From assembly GCA_947625775.1 (NCBI GenBank), contig CANQPM010000002.1:1-64000 (forward strand): DNA of 64,000 nt, given 5' to 3'. Positions 5,163 to 31,584 of the stretch are shown here, in pieces. The stretch is from an uncultured Lachnospiraceae bacterium. GTDB lineage: Bacteria > Bacillota > Clostridia > Lachnospirales > Lachnospiraceae. Position numbers and translations under genes: made by a program. The notes beneath the pieces are model-generated. The model had not been told where the DNA came from. It did no database searches and saw nothing but the letters and a program-made list of their open reading frames with translations. Position 1 is the first letter of the stretch. The number at the start of each line of letters is the position of its first letter.

Positions 5163-6938
5163 ATGAAGAATAGTCCTGAATCAATACAGAATAAGGACAC
5201 AGGCGTTAATATGCGGCAATTAAATGATAAAAAATATAAAATTGAAAGGCTGGCTGGCAATATGGATACTACTAATACGGCTAATAAAAGATCTGTGTAT
5301 ATTGTAGGGCATAAAAATCCCGATACGGACTCTATATGCTCAGCAATTGCTTACGCTTATCTGAAAAACAAATGCAACGACGGCTGTCTGTATATTCCTG
5401 CGAGGGCGGGGCAGATAAATCAGGAGACACAGTATGTGCTTAATGCGTTCCGCACGGGGGCTCCGATGTATCTTCACGACGTTATGACTGATGTGCGCGA
5501 TATAGATATGAATGAGGTGCAGGGAGTCACTGACGACATATCGCTTTCAAAGGCGTGGCATTTGATGCGCGACCGAGGTGATGTTACGCTACCTGTTATT
5601 GACGGCGGTAAGCTTACGGGTATCATTACTATCGGCGACATAGCAAATGCTTATATGGACGTTTACGATAACTGTATTTTGTCTACGGCAAAGACTTCTT
5701 ATAGGAATATTCTTGAAACGCTTGATGCTAAGATGATAGTAGGCGATGAGAGCGGATATTTTGACAGCGGGGAAGTGGTGATCGCGACGGCGAACCCTGA
5801 CGTGCTCGAGGATTATATACACAACGGTGATATGGTTATTTTGGGCAACCGCTATGAGACGCAGCTCTGTGCCATAGAGATGGGCGCGGCGTGCGTTGTC
5901 GTCACTATGGGCGCTAAGGTTTCAAAGACGATACAGATATTTGCGAGGGAGCACAATTGCATTATTATAAATACGCCGTATGACACGTTTACCGTGGCGA
6001 GGCTTATAAACCAGAGTATGCCAATCGGCTTTTTCATGAAAAAGGAAAAGCTTGCGACTTTCAGGATTACCGACAAGACGGAGGATATACGTGCTATCAT
6101 GAAAAAGAAGCGCCACCATGATTTTCCAGTGCTTGACGAGGAGGACAATTATGTCGGAATGATTTCCAGACGTAATTTGATGAATTTGAGGAAAAAGAGC
6201 CTGATTTTGGTAGACCACAATGAGCTTTCTCAGACTGTTGACGGCATTGAGTTTGCCGATATTCTGGAGATAGTGGATCACCATAGGATAGGCACTCTTG
6301 AGACTGTGTCGCCTGTGTATTTCCGCAATCAGCCGCTTGGCTGTACGGCTACGATTATTTATCAGATGTATCAGGAGAGGGGCGTGGAGATACCCCAGAA
6401 TATAGCGGGGCTTATGATGTCGGCAATTCTTTCGGATACGCTTATGTTCCATTCGCCTACTGTCACTGACGTTGACAAGGACGCTGCGAAAAAGCTTGCT
6501 GAGATATGCGGGGTTGAGATTGAGGAATTTGCGATTGATATGTTTGGCGCGGGGAGCAATCTGAGCGATAAAGACGCGGATAAGATTTTTGAGCAGGATT
6601 ATAAGACGTTTTCAGTGAACGGCTTTAATTTCGGCGTGGGGCAGATTAATTCGATGAACAGCATTGAGCTTGATGAGATTAAGGAAAAAATCGTGCCTTA
6701 TATAAAGGAGCAGCTGCCAAGTCTTTCTGTGGATATGTGTTTCTTTATGCTGACGAATATTGTGTATGAGAAGACGGAGCTTTTGTGCTTTGGGGAGAGG
6801 GCGCAGGAGCTTGTGCGCGAGGCGTTCAGGCTTCCAAAGTCTATGAATAAGTTTGAGCTTAAAAATCTTGTTTCGAGGAAAAAGCAGCTTATACCAGCGT
6901 TTGTTTCTGTTTTGCAGCAGTGGGAGGCGGAGACATAA
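5163..6938 (+). CDS. ppaC: Putative manganese-dependent inorganic diphosphatase with CBS/DRTGG regulatory insert (DHH family); true start may be 5262
   Basis: VGHKNPDTDSICSAIAYAYL, ILVDHNELSQ, EIVDHHRIG, SDTLMFHSPT motifs; CBS motifs between. Confidence 0.9.
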   Translation: MKNSPESIQNKDTGVNMRQLNDKKYKIERLAGNMDTTNTANKRSVYIVGHKNPDTDSICSAIAYAYLKNKCNDGCLYIPARAGQINQETQYVLNAFRTGAPMYLHDVMTDVRDIDMNEVQGVTDDISLSKAWHLMRDRGDVTLPVIDGGKLTGIITIGDIANAYMDVYDNCILSTAKTSYRNILETLDAKMIVGDESGYFDSGEVVIATANPDVLEDYIHNGDMVILGNRYETQLCAIEMGAACVVVTMGAKVSKTIQIFAREHNCIIINTPYDTFTVARLINQSMPIGFFMKKEKLATFRITDKTEDIRAIMKKKRHHDFPVLDEEDNYVGMISRRNLMNLRKKSLILVDHNELSQTVDGIEFADILEIVDHHRIGTLETVSPVYFRNQPLGCTATIIYQMYQERGVEIPQNIAGLMMSAILSDTLMFHSPTVTDVDKDAAKKLAEICGVEIEEFAIDMFGAGSNLSDKDADKIFEQDYKTFSVNGFNFGVGQINSMNSIELDEIKEKIVPYIKEQLPSLSVDMCFFMLTNIVYEKTELLCFGERAQELVREAFRLPKSMNKFELKNLVSRKKQLIPAFVSVLQQWEAET

Positions 6939-22137: not shown

Positions 22138-22572
22138 TATGCCATAGAGTATTCCAGAAACACGGAAAGCCAGGAAGAAAGAAACCTGATAGATGCCATA
22201 TTTGAAGTAAGCGTAGCAGCCAATAAAGAGGTAGTCGAAGAACTTGTGAGAGGAGATGAGGCTATGTGCCAGGCGCTGATGGAGATAATGAAACCAGAGA
22301 TTGATGAAATAGTGACTATGGCGGTACTGCAGGAATGCAGGAAGACCGCTGAACGCGTAGAAAAGGAAACCGCCGAACGAGTAGAGAAGGAAACCGCTGA
22401 ACGAGTAGAGAAGGAAACCGCTGAACGAGTAGAGAAGGAAACTGCTGAACGTACAATAAAGGCAGCAGTCAAAAGCCTGCGCCGTTTTAATGCCAGTGAT
22501 GCCGACATTAAAACAGCGCTGGTGGAGGATTACGGCATACCAGAGCAGGAGGCTCTCTCGTATTTGAAATAA
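22138..22572 (+). pseudogene. 5'-truncated copy of the PD-(D/E)XK-nuclease-like family (C-terminal region only)
   Basis: AIEYSRNTESQEERNLIDAIFEVSVAANKEVVEELVRGDEAMCQALMEIMKPEIDEI... aligns to the C-terminal part of 47602-48489 and 48582-49517; N-terminal nuclease core missing. Confidence 0.8.
22351..22446 (+). repeat. Four tandem 24-bp repeats encoding ERVEKETA
   Basis: gaacg(a/c)gtaga(g/a)aaggaaac(c/t)gc(c/t) x4. Confidence 0.95.
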
Positions 22573-24827: not shown

Positions 24828-25733
24828 ATGAATATCAATCAGATAAAATACGTGCTTGCAGTGGCAAATTCATCTTCAATGAGGGAGGCCTCAACAAGAC
24901 TCTATATATCACAGCCAGCGCTTTCAGCAAGCATTCACGAGCTTGAAGAAGAACTGGGAATACTGATTTTCGAGAGGACAAATAAGGGAATCTCCCTGAC
25001 TGATGAGGGAAGGGAGTTTATTTCCTATGCCCAAAAAGCGGTAGGGCAGTATGAAATTCTGGAGGACAGGTATCTGTCAAAGGACAGCGGCAAGGAAAGA
25101 TTTTCCGTATCCACGCAGCATTACAATTTTTCCATAAAGGCATTCACTGATACCATACGGAGCATGGAGCCTGAAAAATATGTGTTTTCCATACACGAAA
25201 CAAAGACAAAAGAAGTGTTAGAGGACGTGCAAAGCTTAAAAAGCGAAATAGGCATTATATCATTTTCCAGCTCAAATGAAAATGTGATTAAGAAGCTGTT
25301 TAAGGATTACCAGCTTGAATTTGTGCCGCTGATGAAGCGCGATACATATATTTACGTATGGAAAAACCACAAGTTTGCCAACCGCAAGACAATATCGCTG
25401 GCGGAGCTGAAGGAATACCCCTGCGTTTCATTTGACCAGACGAATGACGGCAGCTTTTACCTCACTGAGGAGGCAATGGCGGATTATGATTTCGACAAGA
25501 TGATAAAGTCTGACGACCGCGCGACCACGATGGAGATTATCGCAGAGCTTGGGGGGTACTCTGTCGGCTCGGGAATGCTTTCGGGTGATGACGCGATTTT
25601 GAAAGGGCTGGTGTCCATAAAGCTCAAAGAGGAGGATCCGCTTATCATAGGCTACATTACACGGAAAGGAATTACATTGTCCGCATACGGGAAAAAATAT
25701 GTTGAGGAGCTTTTAAAGTATAAGGAATTATAG
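24828..25733 (+). CDS. LysR-family transcriptional regulator
   Basis: MNINQIKYVLAVANSSSMREASTRLYISQPALSASIHELEEELGILIFERTNKGISLTDEG HTH. Confidence 0.92.
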   Translation: MNINQIKYVLAVANSSSMREASTRLYISQPALSASIHELEEELGILIFERTNKGISLTDEGREFISYAQKAVGQYEILEDRYLSKDSGKERFSVSTQHYNFSIKAFTDTIRSMEPEKYVFSIHETKTKEVLEDVQSLKSEIGIISFSSSNENVIKKLFKDYQLEFVPLMKRDTYIYVWKNHKFANRKTISLAELKEYPCVSFDQTNDGSFYLTEEAMADYDFDKMIKSDDRATTMEIIAELGGYSVGSGMLSGDDAILKGLVSIKLKEEDPLIIGYITRKGITLSAYGKKYVEELLKYKEL

Positions 25734-25750
25734 TAGCGATAACCAAAACT

Positions 25751-25816
25751 TATCACTAACGATAAAATCAACCGAATTTTCAAAACCAAATCTTAGTGAT
25801 ATGATAATCACAACAA
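25751..25816 (+). promoter_or_regulatory. Inverted repeats upstream of transporter operon; candidate LysR operator
   Basis: tatcactaa (25751-25759) / ttagtgata (25793-25801); ttatc-N6-gataa and gtgat-N6-atcac palindromes. Confidence 0.5.
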
Positions 25817-25836
25817 AGGCGAAGGAGGTGCAGATT

Positions 25837-25881
25837 TTGAGAAATACATGTTTTTGTTGTATGAAGGGCACAGTATATTAG
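25837..25881 (+). CDS. Candidate Cys-rich leader peptide MRNTCFCCMKGTVY
   Basis: gaaggaggtg SD, TTG start, 14 sense codons incl. UGU UUU UGU UGU, TAG stop; precedes sulfur/polar amino-acid transporter operon. Confidence 0.55.
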   Translation: MRNTCFCCMKGTVY

Positions 25882-25990
25882 GCAGAACAAATATTATTTA
25901 AAAGATAGGCATATGCGAAAAAAATCAGACGGTTTAGAACACGTTTCGCAATTACCTAATCATTTAAAAAGAGGAAAAGAGGAGAGCATT

Positions 25991-27679
25991 ATGAAAAAGA
26001 GCATTTTCAGGAAACTTATTACAGGAGCGCTGACTTTGGGAGTAGGAATATCCGTACTCACAGGCTGCGGGCAGACGCAAACGCAGAGCCAGGAAGCAGA
26101 CAATACGTCAGACGCTTCAAACAGGGTTTACAGAACCGTTGATGAGATTAAAGACAGTGGCGAGATTAATATCGGCGTTTTCTCAGACAAAAATCCTTTC
26201 GGATATGTCGATGAAAATGGCGATTATCAGGGATATGACGTGTACTTTGCCAACAGAATCGGAGAAGACCTCGGAGTAAACATCAATTATGTATCGACCG
26301 AAGCGGCAAGCAGGGTTGAATATCTTGAAACTGGCAAAGTGGACATTGTACTCGCAAACTTTACAGTGACAGATGAGAGGGCGGAAAAAGTTGATTTCGC
26401 GCTTCCTTATATGAATGTGGCGCTCGGCGTTGTTTCACATGAGGACAATGTTATTGAAGATTTAGACCAGATTTCACCAGACGACCAGATAATCGTGATT
26501 TCAGGAACTACGGCGGAAACATATCTGGAAAAGAATTATCCCGACATAAAGCTTCAGAAGTTCGATACCTATGCCTCCGCCAAGACAGCATTTGAAAACG
26601 GTACTGGCGTAGCATGGGCAAACGACAATACTGAGGTAATCGCATACTCACTTGAAAATGAAGGCTATGTAGTAGGAATCCCCTCGCTAGGAAGCCAGGA
26701 CACCATAGCTCCAGCAGTTTCAAAGGGAAACAGCTCGCTTCTTGAGTGGCTGAACAGCGAGATTGAAGCATTAGGCAGTGAACAGTTTTTCCATACCGAC
26801 TATGAAGCGACGCTGCTTGATACATATGGCGCAGAATATGAAGATACGCTTGTCGTAGAGGGCGGAAAGCCCGCTCAGTCTGATACTTCAGCACAATCAT
26901 CAGAAACGGAAACAGCCGCGCTTGACATTGTACCTGGAAACGGCGAGACTATAAAGATTGCCGCATCACCTATTCCGCATGCGGAGATATTGCAAAAAGC
27001 GGCGGAAATACTCAAGGATTACGGATATGAGCTTGACATAGTGGAATTTGAGGATTATGTCCAGCCAAATCTGGTAGTGGAATCTGGAGAATTTGACGCA
27101 AACTATATGCAGCACATTCCTTATCTGGAAAGCTTCAATGAGGAGCAGGGGACACATATCGTGAGCGCTGGAGGAATCCACTATGAGCCTTTCGGAATAT
27201 ATCCTGGTACAAAGAAAAGCTTAGACGAGATATCAGACGGAGACAAGATAGCAATCCCCAATGACACCACAAATGAAGCGAGGGCGCTTCTTCTCCTGCA
27301 GGATAACGGGCTTCTCACATTAAACGACGGCGCAGGGCTTACAGCCACGGTAAATGACATCAAAGACAACCCGCACAATATCGAGTTTGTGGAGCTTGAA
27401 GCCGCGCAGGTTGCAAGAGTTATTGATGAAGTCGAATACGTCGTATTAAACGGCAATTACGCGCTTGAAGCGGGATATTCAGTAAGCAAGGATTCCATTG
27501 CATATGAGGCAAACGACTCCATCGCGGCGCAGACCTATGTGAACATTATCGGAGTTAAGGAGGGAAATGAGAATACAGACAAGATAAAGGCATTGGTTAC
27601 GGTTCTTAAATCCGACGACATTAAGAAGTTTATTGAGGACACATATGACGGAGCTGTGATTTTCTTTGAGGAACAGTAA
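25991..27679 (+). CDS. Fused substrate-binding lipoprotein: polar amino-acid SBP (SBP_bac_3 type) + MetQ/NlpA type
   Basis: LTGCGQ lipobox; first half GEINIGVFSDKNPFGYVDENGDYQGYDVYFANRI; second half IKIAASPIPHAEILQKAAEILKDYGYELDIVEFEDYVQPN; Ser/Thr linker between. Confidence 0.9.
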   Translation: MKKSIFRKLITGALTLGVGISVLTGCGQTQTQSQEADNTSDASNRVYRTVDEIKDSGEINIGVFSDKNPFGYVDENGDYQGYDVYFANRIGEDLGVNINYVSTEAASRVEYLETGKVDIVLANFTVTDERAEKVDFALPYMNVALGVVSHEDNVIEDLDQISPDDQIIVISGTTAETYLEKNYPDIKLQKFDTYASAKTAFENGTGVAWANDNTEVIAYSLENEGYVVGIPSLGSQDTIAPAVSKGNSSLLEWLNSEIEALGSEQFFHTDYEATLLDTYGAEYEDTLVVEGGKPAQSDTSAQSSETETAALDIVPGNGETIKIAASPIPHAEILQKAAEILKDYGYELDIVEFEDYVQPNLVVESGEFDANYMQHIPYLESFNEEQGTHIVSAGGIHYEPFGIYPGTKKSLDEISDGDKIAIPNDTTNEARALLLLQDNGLLTLNDGAGLTATVNDIKDNPHNIEFVELEAAQVARVIDEVEYVVLNGNYALEAGYSVSKDSIAYEANDSIAAQTYVNIIGVKEGNENTDKIKALVTVLKSDDIKKFIEDTYDGAVIFFEEQ

Positions 27680-27733: not shown

Positions 27734-28747
27734 ATGGCTGCAGTTGAGATAAAAAATCTTACGAAAAATTTTGATATAGAAGGGCATACCGTCACGGCGC
27801 TCAGCAACGTGTGCCTGACGATTGAAAAGGGAGATATATTCGGAGTTATCGGAATGTCGGGCGCGGGGAAAAGCACCCTTGTACGTTCCATCAATTTTTT
27901 GGAAAAACCGACAGACGGAAGCGTATATATTGATGGCGTTGACCTCGGAACTCTCTCGGAGCGTGAGCTGCGCAGGATGCGCTCGCGAATCGGGATGATT
28001 TTCCAAAACTTTAACCTCCTCGAGCAGAAAAACGTTATCGACAATGTATGCTTTCCATTAGAGATAAACGGCACTAAGCGCAAGGAGGCAAAAAAACGGG
28101 CATTGGAGCTTCTCGGACTTGTAAAGCTTGAAGATAAGGCAAAAGCTTATCCTTCCCAATTATCGGGCGGACAAAAACAGCGTGTCGCAATAGCCCGTGC
28201 GCTTGCGACAGATCCACAGCTTCTCTTATGTGATGAGGCGACAAGTGCGCTAGATCCGCAGACGACAGGCTCTATTCTGGAATTGATAAGGGAAATCAAC
28301 GAAAAACTTGGCATAACCGTAGTGATCATAACGCATCAGATGTCCGTAGTGACTGACATTTGTAAAAAAGTGGCGATTATAGACAACGGAAGACTGGTTG
28401 AGGAAGGGCTTGTGGAGGAAATCTTCAGCGCCCCGAAATCAGACGCGGCAAGAGAGCTTTTATCAGGGAAAAAGGTTTCTTACAAACCGCTGGAAAAACT
28501 GGAGGAAGGGCGCAGGATAAGAATTGTTTTCAGGGAAAACTCAGCCTATGAGCCAGTGATCGCCAATTTGATCTTAAAGCTGCAAATTCCCATAAACATT
28601 CTCAAAGCCGAAACCCAAAATGTCGGCGGCAAGGCAGTCGGCGAGATGATTCTTGGATTGCCCGACAACAGCAATCAGCAGGAGGATATTATCCTTGAAT
28701 TAAAAAATGCGGGGCTTACCGTGACGGAGGTGCATGAAAATGAATGA
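27734..28747 (+). CDS. metN: Methionine-type ABC transporter ATP-binding protein with C-terminal NIL domain
   Basis: Walker A GMSGAGKST, LSGGQKQR; FGVIGMSGAGKSTLVRSINFLEKPT; NIL-like C-terminus. Confidence 0.9.
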   Translation: MAAVEIKNLTKNFDIEGHTVTALSNVCLTIEKGDIFGVIGMSGAGKSTLVRSINFLEKPTDGSVYIDGVDLGTLSERELRRMRSRIGMIFQNFNLLEQKNVIDNVCFPLEINGTKRKEAKKRALELLGLVKLEDKAKAYPSQLSGGQKQRVAIARALATDPQLLLCDEATSALDPQTTGSILELIREINEKLGITVVIITHQMSVVTDICKKVAIIDNGRLVEEGLVEEIFSAPKSDAARELLSGKKVSYKPLEKLEEGRRIRIVFRENSAYEPVIANLILKLQIPINILKAETQNVGGKAVGEMILGLPDNSNQQEDIILELKNAGLTVTEVHENE

Positions 28748-29399
28748 GAACGTAATAGCAATGCTTATAAGCGGAATAGGAGAAACCCTATACATGACGC
28801 TTGGCTCTGTGATTATCGGATATGTTATCGGGCTTCCGCTTGGGATTTTATTATATGTTTCAGGGAAAAACGGATTAAGACCGTGCATGCCGCTCTATCG
28901 TGCGCTTGATTTTATATGCAATATTATAAGGAGTATTCCGTTTCTCATTCTGCTTATATTGCTAATTCCGTTTACAAGGCTGCTCGTAGGGCAAAGCTAC
29001 GGCTCAACGGCTACGATCGTGCCGCTCGTCGTATGCGCCGCGCCATATATCGCAAGAGTGGTGGAAGCCTCCCTGACAGACGTTGACGCGGGCGTTATTG
29101 AAGCGGCTAAAGCCATGGGAGCAAGCAATATGCAGATTATCTGCAGGGTGCTTCTGGTTGAGGCAAAGACATCACTTATTACGGGCTTTACAATCACGAC
29201 AGGGCTGCTTTTAGGATATTCAGCAATGTCGGGAACTGTCGGCGGCGGCGGTCTGGGAGATATCGCAGTACGTTACGGATATTACAGATGGCAGACGGAT
29301 ATTATGGTTATCACGGTAATTCTGCTGATTATAATTTTTCAGATCATACAGACTGTCGGCATGAAAATATCAAAAAAACTTGACCACAGAAAGCGGTAA
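28734..29399 (+). CDS. metI: Methionine-type ABC transporter permease
   Basis: SGIGETLYMTLGSVIIGYVIGLPLGILL; GAAKAMGAS EAA motif. Confidence 0.9.
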   Translation: MKMNENVIAMLISGIGETLYMTLGSVIIGYVIGLPLGILLYVSGKNGLRPCMPLYRALDFICNIIRSIPFLILLILLIPFTRLLVGQSYGSTATIVPLVVCAAPYIARVVEASLTDVDAGVIEAAKAMGASNMQIICRVLLVEAKTSLITGFTITTGLLLGYSAMSGTVGGGGLGDIAVRYGYYRWQTDIMVITVILLIIIFQIIQTVGMKISKKLDHRKR

Positions 29400-29404
29400 T
29401 ATTC

Positions 29405-30064
29405 ATGAATGTAGATGTTTTAATTTCGTATTTTCCAAGATACGCCGAGGCGTTCCTGCTTACATTGAGAATCGGCTGGCTGGGGATTTTATTATCGGCT
29501 GCGATAGGGATTGTTTCAGCATTCACAATGTATTTTAAGCTTCCTGTGCTCTCGCGCATTGCGGGCGCATATGTCGAAATATTCCGCAACACGCCGCTGC
29601 TTGTACAGCTGTTTTTTGTATATTTTGGAATGCCTAAGCTGGGATTTGCCATTTCTGCCGAAACGTGCGGCATTGTCGGCATTGGGCTTCTTGGTGGCAG
29701 CTATATGTCGGAGGCTTTGAGAAGCAGCCTTAATGCAGTCCCCGCGTCACAGGCGGAGAGTGCTGAAGCGCTCGGAATGACACATTTTCAGGCTTTTTGG
29801 CTGGTAATATTTCCAGAGGCTTTGGTCTTGAGCGTGCCTGCAGTCGTGGCAAACGTAATTTTTCTGTTAAAGGAAACCAGCGTTTTTTCGGCAATCAGCC
29901 TTATGGATTTGATGTTTACGGCAAAGGATCTTATTGGGCTTTACTACGATACGACAGAGGCGCTTTTTATGCTTGTCGTGTTTTATATCATAATGCTTGT
30001 CCCCGTGTCGGCGGCAGGCAGCGTGCTTGAAAGAAAAGCAAGGCATAAAATGTTTGGAGAATAA
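29405..30064 (+). CDS. Polar amino-acid ABC transporter permease
   Basis: YVEIFRNTPLLVQLFFVYFGMPKLG; EALGMTHFQAF. Confidence 0.9.
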   Translation: MNVDVLISYFPRYAEAFLLTLRIGWLGILLSAAIGIVSAFTMYFKLPVLSRIAGAYVEIFRNTPLLVQLFFVYFGMPKLGFAISAETCGIVGIGLLGGSYMSEALRSSLNAVPASQAESAEALGMTHFQAFWLVIFPEALVLSVPAVVANVIFLLKETSVFSAISLMDLMFTAKDLIGLYYDTTEALFMLVVFYIIMLVPVSAAGSVLERKARHKMFGE

Positions 30065-30067
30065 AAG

Positions 30068-30736
30068 ATGGGATTTGAAGTATTGTTAAAGGGAAATAAC
30101 ATGATAAGGCTTCTTGGGGGGCTTGCTGTCGCGCTTAAAATCAGCCTGATATCTGTATGCATAAGCCTGATTATGGGGACAGTGTTTGGAAGCTTAATGA
30201 ATGACAGGCATCCGCTGATTAAAAAGATTCTAAGGGCATACCTTGAAATTGTCAGGATTATGCCCCAGCTGGTGCTGCTGTTCATCGCCTACTTCGGGAC
30301 TACAAAGGCTTTAGGCGTAAACATCTCCGCAGAGGCAGCTTCAATAATCGTATTTTCCTTTTGGGGCTCTGCGGAAATGGCTGACCTTGTGCGTGGGGCG
30401 CTTTCGGGCATACCGCCTGCCCAGTACGAGAGCAGTCTTGCGCTTGGACTGACTTATCACCAGACGCTTGTTTATATTATCATTCCGCAGATTATAAGGA
30501 GAATGCTCCCGCTGTCAATTAACTTGATTACCAGAATGATTAAGACTACAAGCCTGATTATGATGATTGGCATTGTAGAGGTCTTAAAGGTAGGACAGCA
30601 GATTATCGAAGCAAACCGCAAAAATTATCCGAATGCGGCTTTTGGCATATATTTTACTGTATTTGTCCTGTATTTCGCCGTATGCTGGCCGATCAGCATG
30701 CTTTCAAGATATCTTGAAAGAAAATGGGAGGCATAG
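30068..30736 (+). CDS. Polar amino-acid ABC transporter permease
   Basis: YLEIVRIMPQLVLLFIAYFGTTKALG; SLALGLTYHQTLVYIIIPQ. Confidence 0.9.
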   Translation: MGFEVLLKGNNMIRLLGGLAVALKISLISVCISLIMGTVFGSLMNDRHPLIKKILRAYLEIVRIMPQLVLLFIAYFGTTKALGVNISAEAASIIVFSFWGSAEMADLVRGALSGIPPAQYESSLALGLTYHQTLVYIIIPQIIRRMLPLSINLITRMIKTTSLIMMIGIVEVLKVGQQIIEANRKNYPNAAFGIYFTVFVLYFAVCWPISMLSRYLERKWEA

Positions 30737-30837
30737 TATCTGCTGGGTGCATCAAGAATGGGGGACAGTGTGAGAAATAAATTTTTCACACGCAAATTTG
30801 TGTTTAGGACACAAATTCGCAGATATGTAAAGAATGG

Positions 30838-31584
30838 GTGATTAGGATGAACGAAATTTTGAATATCAATGGCATTAGTAAAAAATATGGCGATCTTGTC
30901 GTGCTGGATAACTTGAGCCTAAAGGTCAAGAGTGGTGAAGTGGTAGTGATAGTAGGCCCGTCGGGATGCGGGAAAAGTACGCTTTTAAGGTGCATAAACG
31001 CGCTTGAAATAATAGATGACGGAGAAGTGGCGCTTGACGGAAAGGCTATCAACCCGCATGACAAAAAACTGAGCAAAGTAAGAGAAAAAATCGGAATGGT
31101 TTTCCAAAGCTACGAGCTGTTTCCGCACAAGACAATCCTGCAGAATCTTGTACTGGCGCCTGTCAGAGTGAAAAAAATGAATCGCAAAGAAGCTGAAAAG
31201 GAAGCGCTCCACCTTCTGGAAAGAGTAGGGCTGCTCTCAAAAAAGGATAATTACCCAAGACAGCTTTCAGGCGGCCAGAAACAGAGGGTGGCAATCGTCA
31301 GGGCGCTCATGATGAATCCGGAGATTTTGCTTATGGACGAAATCACGGCAGCGCTCGATCCTGAAATGGTAAGAGAGGTATTGGAGGTAGTGCTGGATTT
31401 GGCAAAAGAAGGGCGTACAATGATTATCGTAACCCATGAGCTTCAATTCGCAAAAGCTGCAGCAGACCGCATGGTATTTATAGACGGCGGCAGGATTATC
31501 GAAGAAGGAGAGCCAAAGGAATTTTTTGAAAATCCCAAGACGGAAAGACTGAAAAAATTTTTACATTCGTTTACTTATGAATAA
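30838..31584 (+). CDS. Polar amino-acid ABC transporter ATP-binding protein (GlnQ-like)
   Basis: VGPSGCGKSTLLRCINALE, LSGGQKQRVAIVRALMMNPEILLMDEITAALDPEMV. Confidence 0.92.
   Translation: MIRMNEILNINGISKKYGDLVVLDNLSLKVKSGEVVVIVGPSGCGKSTLLRCINALEIIDDGEVALDGKAINPHDKKLSKVREKIGMVFQSYELFPHKTILQNLVLAPVRVKKMNRKEAEKEALHLLERVGLLSKKDNYPRQLSGGQKQRVAIVRALMMNPEILLMDEITAALDPEMVREVLEVVLDLAKEGRTMIIVTHELQFAKAAADRMVFIDGGRIIEEGEPKEFFENPKTERLKKFLHSFTYE

Follow-up and report, generated by a model that had tools for sequence, protein, structure and literature searches.

In Firmicutes, T-boxes and riboswitches prevail, and attenuators that act through amino-acid leader peptides are described as uncommon (PMC2965389, PMC1262725). 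Leaders containing clustered Cys codons have been described in other bacteria. The uORFC-8-2 motif, which precedes cysS in Rhodobacterales, combines a tandem-Cys upstream ORF with an intrinsic terminator, and ribosome-mediated attenuation has been predicted for it (PMC8632094). In Actinobacteria, short ORFs with clustered Cys codons precede sulfur genes without any terminator (PMC1262725). The mycobacterial examples are leaderless and carry a run of Cys codons near the stop codon, according to the account of Canestrari et al. 2020 that is given in PMC13236596. Our literature search, which covered open-licence papers, found no report of cysteine attenuators in Lachnospiraceae or other Clostridia.

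The leader ORF considered here lies in a 64,000-nucleotide stretch of DNA from an uncultured Lachnospiraceae bacterium; we refer to this whole stretch as the window, and the features of its leader region and transporter operon given below are on the + strand. The ORF (MRNTCFCCMKGTVY) occupies positions 25837-25881, from a TTG start (25837-25839) to a TAG stop (25879-25881), and reads TTG AGA AAT ACA TGT TTT TGT TGT ATG AAG GGC ACA GTA TAT TAG, with Cys codons at 25849, 25855 and 25858. Its Shine-Dalgarno (SD) sequence, AAGGAGGTG, was read directly at 25822-25830 and lies 6 nt 5' of the TTG. A preliminary description of this DNA had reported the SD, the TTG, 14 sense codons including UGU-UUU-UGU-UGU, the TAG and a 109-nt gap to the next gene, and direct reading reproduces each of these exactly. 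The gap (25882-25990) ends at the ATG of a gene encoding a fused binding protein (25991-27679), in which a cystine-type SBP_bac_3 domain is joined to an NlpA/MetQ lipoprotein domain. A mechanical ORF list places the start of this gene at 25913, but the start at 25991, which has its own SD, is supported by two congeneric genomes, G033 and G034. The fused gene is the first of an operon that continues (27734-31584) with genes for a MetN-like ATPase, a MetI-like permease, two polar amino acid permeases and a GlnQ-like ATPase. Given the domains of the binding protein together with MetN, MetI, the permeases and the second ATPase, the operon likely encodes a transporter for sulfur amino acids. Elsewhere in the window, at 22246-22572, there is an ORF with several tandem ERVEKETA-type repeats.

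Like the Actinobacterial polycysteine leaders, the window copy places Cys codons before sulfur genes and has no terminator. However, the mycobacterial leaders are leaderless with their Cys codons near the stop, while in the window ORF a strong SD precedes the start and six sense codons separate the last Cys codon from the stop. It also differs from the trp/his-type attenuators of Proteobacteria, as it lacks both a terminator and an antiterminator. T-box and S-box (SAM) leaders of Firmicutes likewise control amino acid or sulfur genes by transcription termination, but they do so by direct binding of tRNA or SAM and lack a leader ORF; when Rfam 15 was applied to the window, it matched only a tmRNA, and nothing at the leader.

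It is important to consider whether such an ORF might arise by chance. SD-led frames of 8-59 codons with three Cys codons among four are expected 0.067 times, as estimated by shuffling the window alone (60 shuffles, both strands), and the window contains exactly one, the leader at 25837-25881. Taken alone, this rarity is only suggestive. In G033 and G034, the arrangement is the same as in the window, and the SD, start and Cys codons are kept. The 24 nt from the TTG through the last Cys codon show zero changes across the three species (the window genome being G000), although fourfold-degenerate sites of the operon and of the adjacent lysR gene have diverged by roughly 10%; by our own estimate, the chance of 24 unchanged nucleotides at that divergence is approximately 0.02. 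The last seven leader codons vary as freely as neutral sites, with three changes, all in G034, giving CFCCIKGTAY. Conservation of the Cys codons in relatives, which the preliminary description had put forward as a check, is found in the two closest species only, i.e., within a single close clade.

Directly upstream of the leader, and in the same orientation, is a gene for a LysR-family regulator (24828-25733; Pfam HTH_1 and LysR_substrate), with orthologues in G044, G242 and G105. It is followed by a candidate LysR operator of three half-sites, GATAA-N7-TTATC-N6-GATAA (25738-25765), which is identical in G033 and G034 and to which the LysR protein would bind. A candidate promoter, identified by a consensus scan, consists of TTTTCA, 17 nt and TATGAT, with TG before the -10 (25777-25805), and is kept in the relatives. 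In G033 only, a toxin-antitoxin-like pair, judged by eye to be a RelB-like antitoxin and a PIN-like protein (L031, positions 5952-6679), separates lysR from the conserved promoter block.

Between the promoter and the Cys codons, an imperfect inverted repeat (25810-25860) is formed by ACAACAAAGGCG (25810-25821) and TGTTTTTGTTGT (25849-25860), and encloses the SD and the start codon; the second arm is the Cys-codon stretch itself. The ORF might thus be incidental: the leader SD would sit inside an RNA hairpin or a DNA operator with TGTTTTTGTTGT as one of its arms, and Cys would be encoded there by accident. The repeat, as ACAACAAA...TTTGTTGT, occurs in all three species, its 8-bp core is equalled in only 6 of 300 shuffles, and folding predictions for G033 and G034 give it as the main hairpin. 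However, the folding energy of the window's 5' region as a whole is no better than that of shuffled sequences, a Cys frame of this kind is rare by chance, and the homologous modules described below carry an SD-led ORF with Cys codons at the same place. We therefore regard an incidental ORF as quite improbable.

No terminator or antiterminator was detected in the window's leader transcript. Of the 109 nt that separate the leader from the gene, 53 belong to a repeated palindromic element (25906-25958) that is inserted in the window species alone; the site is empty in G033 and G034, where only about 50 nt lie between leader and gene. Fifteen other places in the window genome match this element. 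Its ends (TAGGCATATGCGAAA...TTTCGCAATTACCTA) are inverted, it resembles a MITE, and many copies are present in G000, G033 and G034. The copies often adjoin gene starts, and longer forms with an inner palindrome also occur (L010-L030).

We compared the window with orthologous operons in other genera and in G023, a genome of the same genus, where SD-led leaders of about 40 codons contain clusters of Cys codons or of alternating Met and Cys codons (e.g., MRTKAVYETKMCCMCMCRMLNSRADNVVRRLACLSCAVLS). The order of elements in these intact modules is a ribosome-binding site, a leader with a Cys cluster (CCRMxxSRA), three arms that we call A, B and C, and a run of U. Arm A (CTCCCGGGCA) is encoded inside the leader by the codons of the S-R-A motif, which suggests that this peptide motif is conserved because its codons form arm A. 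Arm B (GCCCGGGAG) lies downstream of the leader's stop codon and is often preceded by GCCAT, which can pair with an ATGGC that follows arm A. Arm C is CCCGG or similar, and is followed by the U-run. The metY leader of Clostridium porci (L237) is an example of the canonical form, while some members (L039, L044 and L045) appear to keep this architecture with different arm sequences. Many intact leaders (L131, L132, L139, L126 and others) end in R-C-stop, i.e., CGATGT followed by a stop codon, and so have a second conserved Cys codon.

Two mutually exclusive structures can be drawn from these arms. A B:C hairpin directly precedes the U-run in all 25 aligned examples (25/25), and A:B forms a strong alternative helix. 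In a MAFFT alignment that was made without reference to structure, A and B pair in 88.3% of cells, versus 23-50% when the partner is slid. Among the 15 A:B base pairs, 9 change on both sides, and this covariation score was equalled in none of 500 shuffles. The covariation repeats on 81 distinct further sequences, although these were aligned by the covariance model and hence lean towards it. The distance from the start of the last Cys codon to arm A is 14 nt at 122 of 143 sites, and in the same set arm B starts a median of 28 nt after the leader stop; some of these sites were selected with a pattern in which the spacing to arm A is fixed. A distance of 14 nt corresponds approximately to the expected leading edge of a ribosome that has stalled with its A site on that Cys codon. 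A further hairpin within the leader, TCGAATGC/GCGTTCGA, could take up arm A; it is evident in many members and has moderate support overall.

These features indicate trp-type attenuation by means of Cys codons in the intact relatives. Sequence comparison shows the leader ORFs, the Cys cluster, the A:B and B:C pairings, the A:B covariation, the near-constant spacing and the gene context, and from these we infer the stalling, the termination, the role of the leader hairpin and cysteine as the signal. In an intact module, a ribosome would translate the short leader. If Cys-tRNA is sufficient, the ribosome would pass the Cys codons and the leader RNA would fold on itself and take up arm A, so that B would be free to pair with C, and this hairpin and the U-run would end transcription. 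If Cys-tRNA is scarce, the ribosome would stall at the Cys codons and its front would stop just short of arm A, in which case A would pair with B, the terminator would not form, and metY or a sulfur amino acid transporter would be made. The intact relatives thus have in common with the trp/his-type attenuators a leader ORF with codons for the regulated amino acid, and mutually exclusive antiterminator and intrinsic terminator structures. They differ in that their codons are for Cys, their hosts are Clostridia, their conserved sequence is unrelated and arm A is inside the leader ORF. The sequence features by which ribosome-mediated cysteine attenuators are recognized, namely an SD-led Cys leader, a terminator with its antiterminator, the spacing for a stall and downstream genes of the matching pathway, are present in these relatives.

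To find further members, we searched 299 genomes of the family with a profile of nine leader peptides, and subsequently with a covariance model. Matches to a loose DNA pattern for CRM[LF]FS were mostly due to chance; the peptide profile, and later the covariance model, replaced it. The leaders found by the profile precede metY (encoding O-acetylhomoserine sulfhydrylase) and genes for cystathionine enzymes, cystine/methionine binding proteins, permeases and others. The covariance model detects the attenuator in at least 40 of the 299 family genomes, each of which represents a different genus. It also does so in at least 10 genomes, belonging to five other families, among 292 of the class, and in at least 2 of 38 genomes congeneric with the window. 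All three numbers are lower bounds, because only some of the candidates in each genome were scored. A strict DNA pattern additionally occurs in at least 120 stretches of GTDB contigs. Of these, 80 stretches, mostly from rumen and gut Lachnospiraceae, Ruminococcaceae/Oscillospiraceae and Saccharofermentans, were scored with the covariance model, and all 80 gave a score. Motifs in 75 genes downstream of attenuators, with representatives checked, indicate 46 MetY-like proteins, 10 NlpA-like proteins, 9 cystine-type binding proteins, 3 permeases, 1 cystathionine enzyme and six others. At one locus (L112), the attenuator precedes an apparent glycyl radical enzyme that is possibly sulfonate-using. 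A contig labelled Eggerthellaceae (L220, from an Actinomycetota MAG) has an attenuator before metY, which might reflect misbinning or transfer. No Rfam 15 family matched any of 18 attenuator loci. The uORFC-8-2 motif, for its part, is alphaproteobacterial and reported only before cysS, in contrast to the occurrence of the present family in Clostridia, before metY and transporters, and with a LysR box in a subset.

The window is related to these modules through its 5' region. In G044 and G242, the metY attenuators are preceded by a GATAA-N7-TTATC-N6-GATAA box, a similar promoter, GGAGGT and a start codon, and the window is collinear with both modules from the box to the first leader codons. The GGAGGT of the window's SD is kept in both, and an exact core copy of the window's box stands before the metY attenuator in G044. 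The match holds when the box is left out (0 of 500 shuffles), and is marginal if just the SD and the leader start are compared. In G044 and G242, the gene immediately 5' of the box encodes an orthologue of the window's LysR protein (77-79%). Another orthologue (76%) precedes the fused transporter in G105, and others are present in G117 and G078. Homology between the window and the intact modules spans the region from the box to the start codon, and the window's CFCC is a putative descendant of the intact Cys cluster.

Arms A, B and C, however, are absent in the window and in G033 and G034. It might still be supposed, as the preliminary description implied, that classical terminator-based attenuation operates in the window itself, since the module is homologous to those of true attenuators. 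Yet neither the window nor its two nearest relatives have any of the three arms or a terminator, and the covariance model finds no attenuator among the candidates scored from the window genome. We consider this supposition extremely unlikely. The proposal of cysteine-responsive attenuation is right for the family, where Cys-cluster leaders, terminators, antiterminators and covariation accompany related operons, but its classical form cannot operate in the window, given the missing arms. Although the window copy has an SD-led leader ORF with a Cys cluster, it has no terminator with a competing antiterminator, and we therefore do not assign it to the ribosome-mediated cysteine transcription attenuators.

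The LysR box and the attenuator alternate among the fused-transporter operons that were scored. The LysR box is present and the attenuator absent in G000, G033, G034, G078 and G105, while the attenuator is present and the box absent in G023, G149, G269, G224, G060 and G039. Five genomes that were picked because they have the attenuator at the transporter operon encode no orthologue of the LysR protein, or just paralogues with 39-56%. This alternation holds among the scored fused-SBP operons; a general mutual exclusion of box and attenuator is refuted by G044 and G242, where both stand together before metY. Overall, a LysR box with at most two mismatches precedes 12 of 142 attenuators, and in eleven of these 12 it lies 149-161 nt 5' of arm A. 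Separately, a palindrome-like sequence, CCTATTGACATAGTAGG, recurs over the presumed -35 upstream of leaders in L222, L172 and L050; it is perhaps an Rrf2/CymR-type operator, and the attenuators concerned have no LysR box.

Even in its truncated form, the window's leader might be a working cysteine sensor. A ribosome stalled at the Cys codons, near the 5' end, could stabilize the mRNA or change Rho access or initiation at the binding-protein gene, along the lines suggested for Actinobacterial cysteine leaders that have no terminator. The strong SD, the position of the leader 30-40 nt downstream of the predicted -10, the unchanged start and Cys codons in three species, and the homology of the region to leaders of true attenuators are consistent with such a role. 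However, RNA structure in the 5' region is not beyond chance, and no conserved element links the leader to the gene; the sister species have only the short gap, and the window adds a repeat to it. Moreover, the LysR-type orthologous operons of other genera (G078 and G105) manage without a Cys leader, which also counts against the cysteine-responsive attenuation that the preliminary description put forward for this copy. We consider a sensor of this kind unlikely, although less so than the incidental ORF.

Our preferred explanation, which we think probable, is that the window ORF derives by truncation from a cysteine attenuator module of Clostridia whose intact relatives are of the trp type, and that the window operon is likely controlled by LysR. 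The lineage of G000, G033 and G034 retains only the promoter with its LysR box, the SD and start codon, and a short cluster of Cys codons, and we infer from the homology that arms A, B and C were lost. It is most likely that the neighbouring LysR protein controls the operon at initiation. The leader is most likely a remnant that contributes little, if anything, to regulation by itself, or at most acts as a weak sensor that is independent of a terminator. The unchanged stretch from the start to the Cys codons counts against a pure remnant, as a remnant need not be unchanged.

More broadly, there is good reason to believe that an undescribed Cys-codon attenuator family without an Rfam entry, spread across Lachnospiraceae and other Clostridia, controls metY along with cystathionine enzymes and cystine/methionine transporters, that a subset of it has a dedicated LysR regulator, and that the window kept the LysR promoter and lost the attenuator. 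The family offers a covariance model for annotation, and the orthologous transporter operons show change between RNA-level and LysR-level control. The family appears to be a widespread RNA switch of gut and rumen Clostridia, not yet catalogued, that would turn sulfur genes on at low cysteine. If this is true, the conserved attenuator would provide a direct, testable explanation of cysteine sensing in many of these bacteria.
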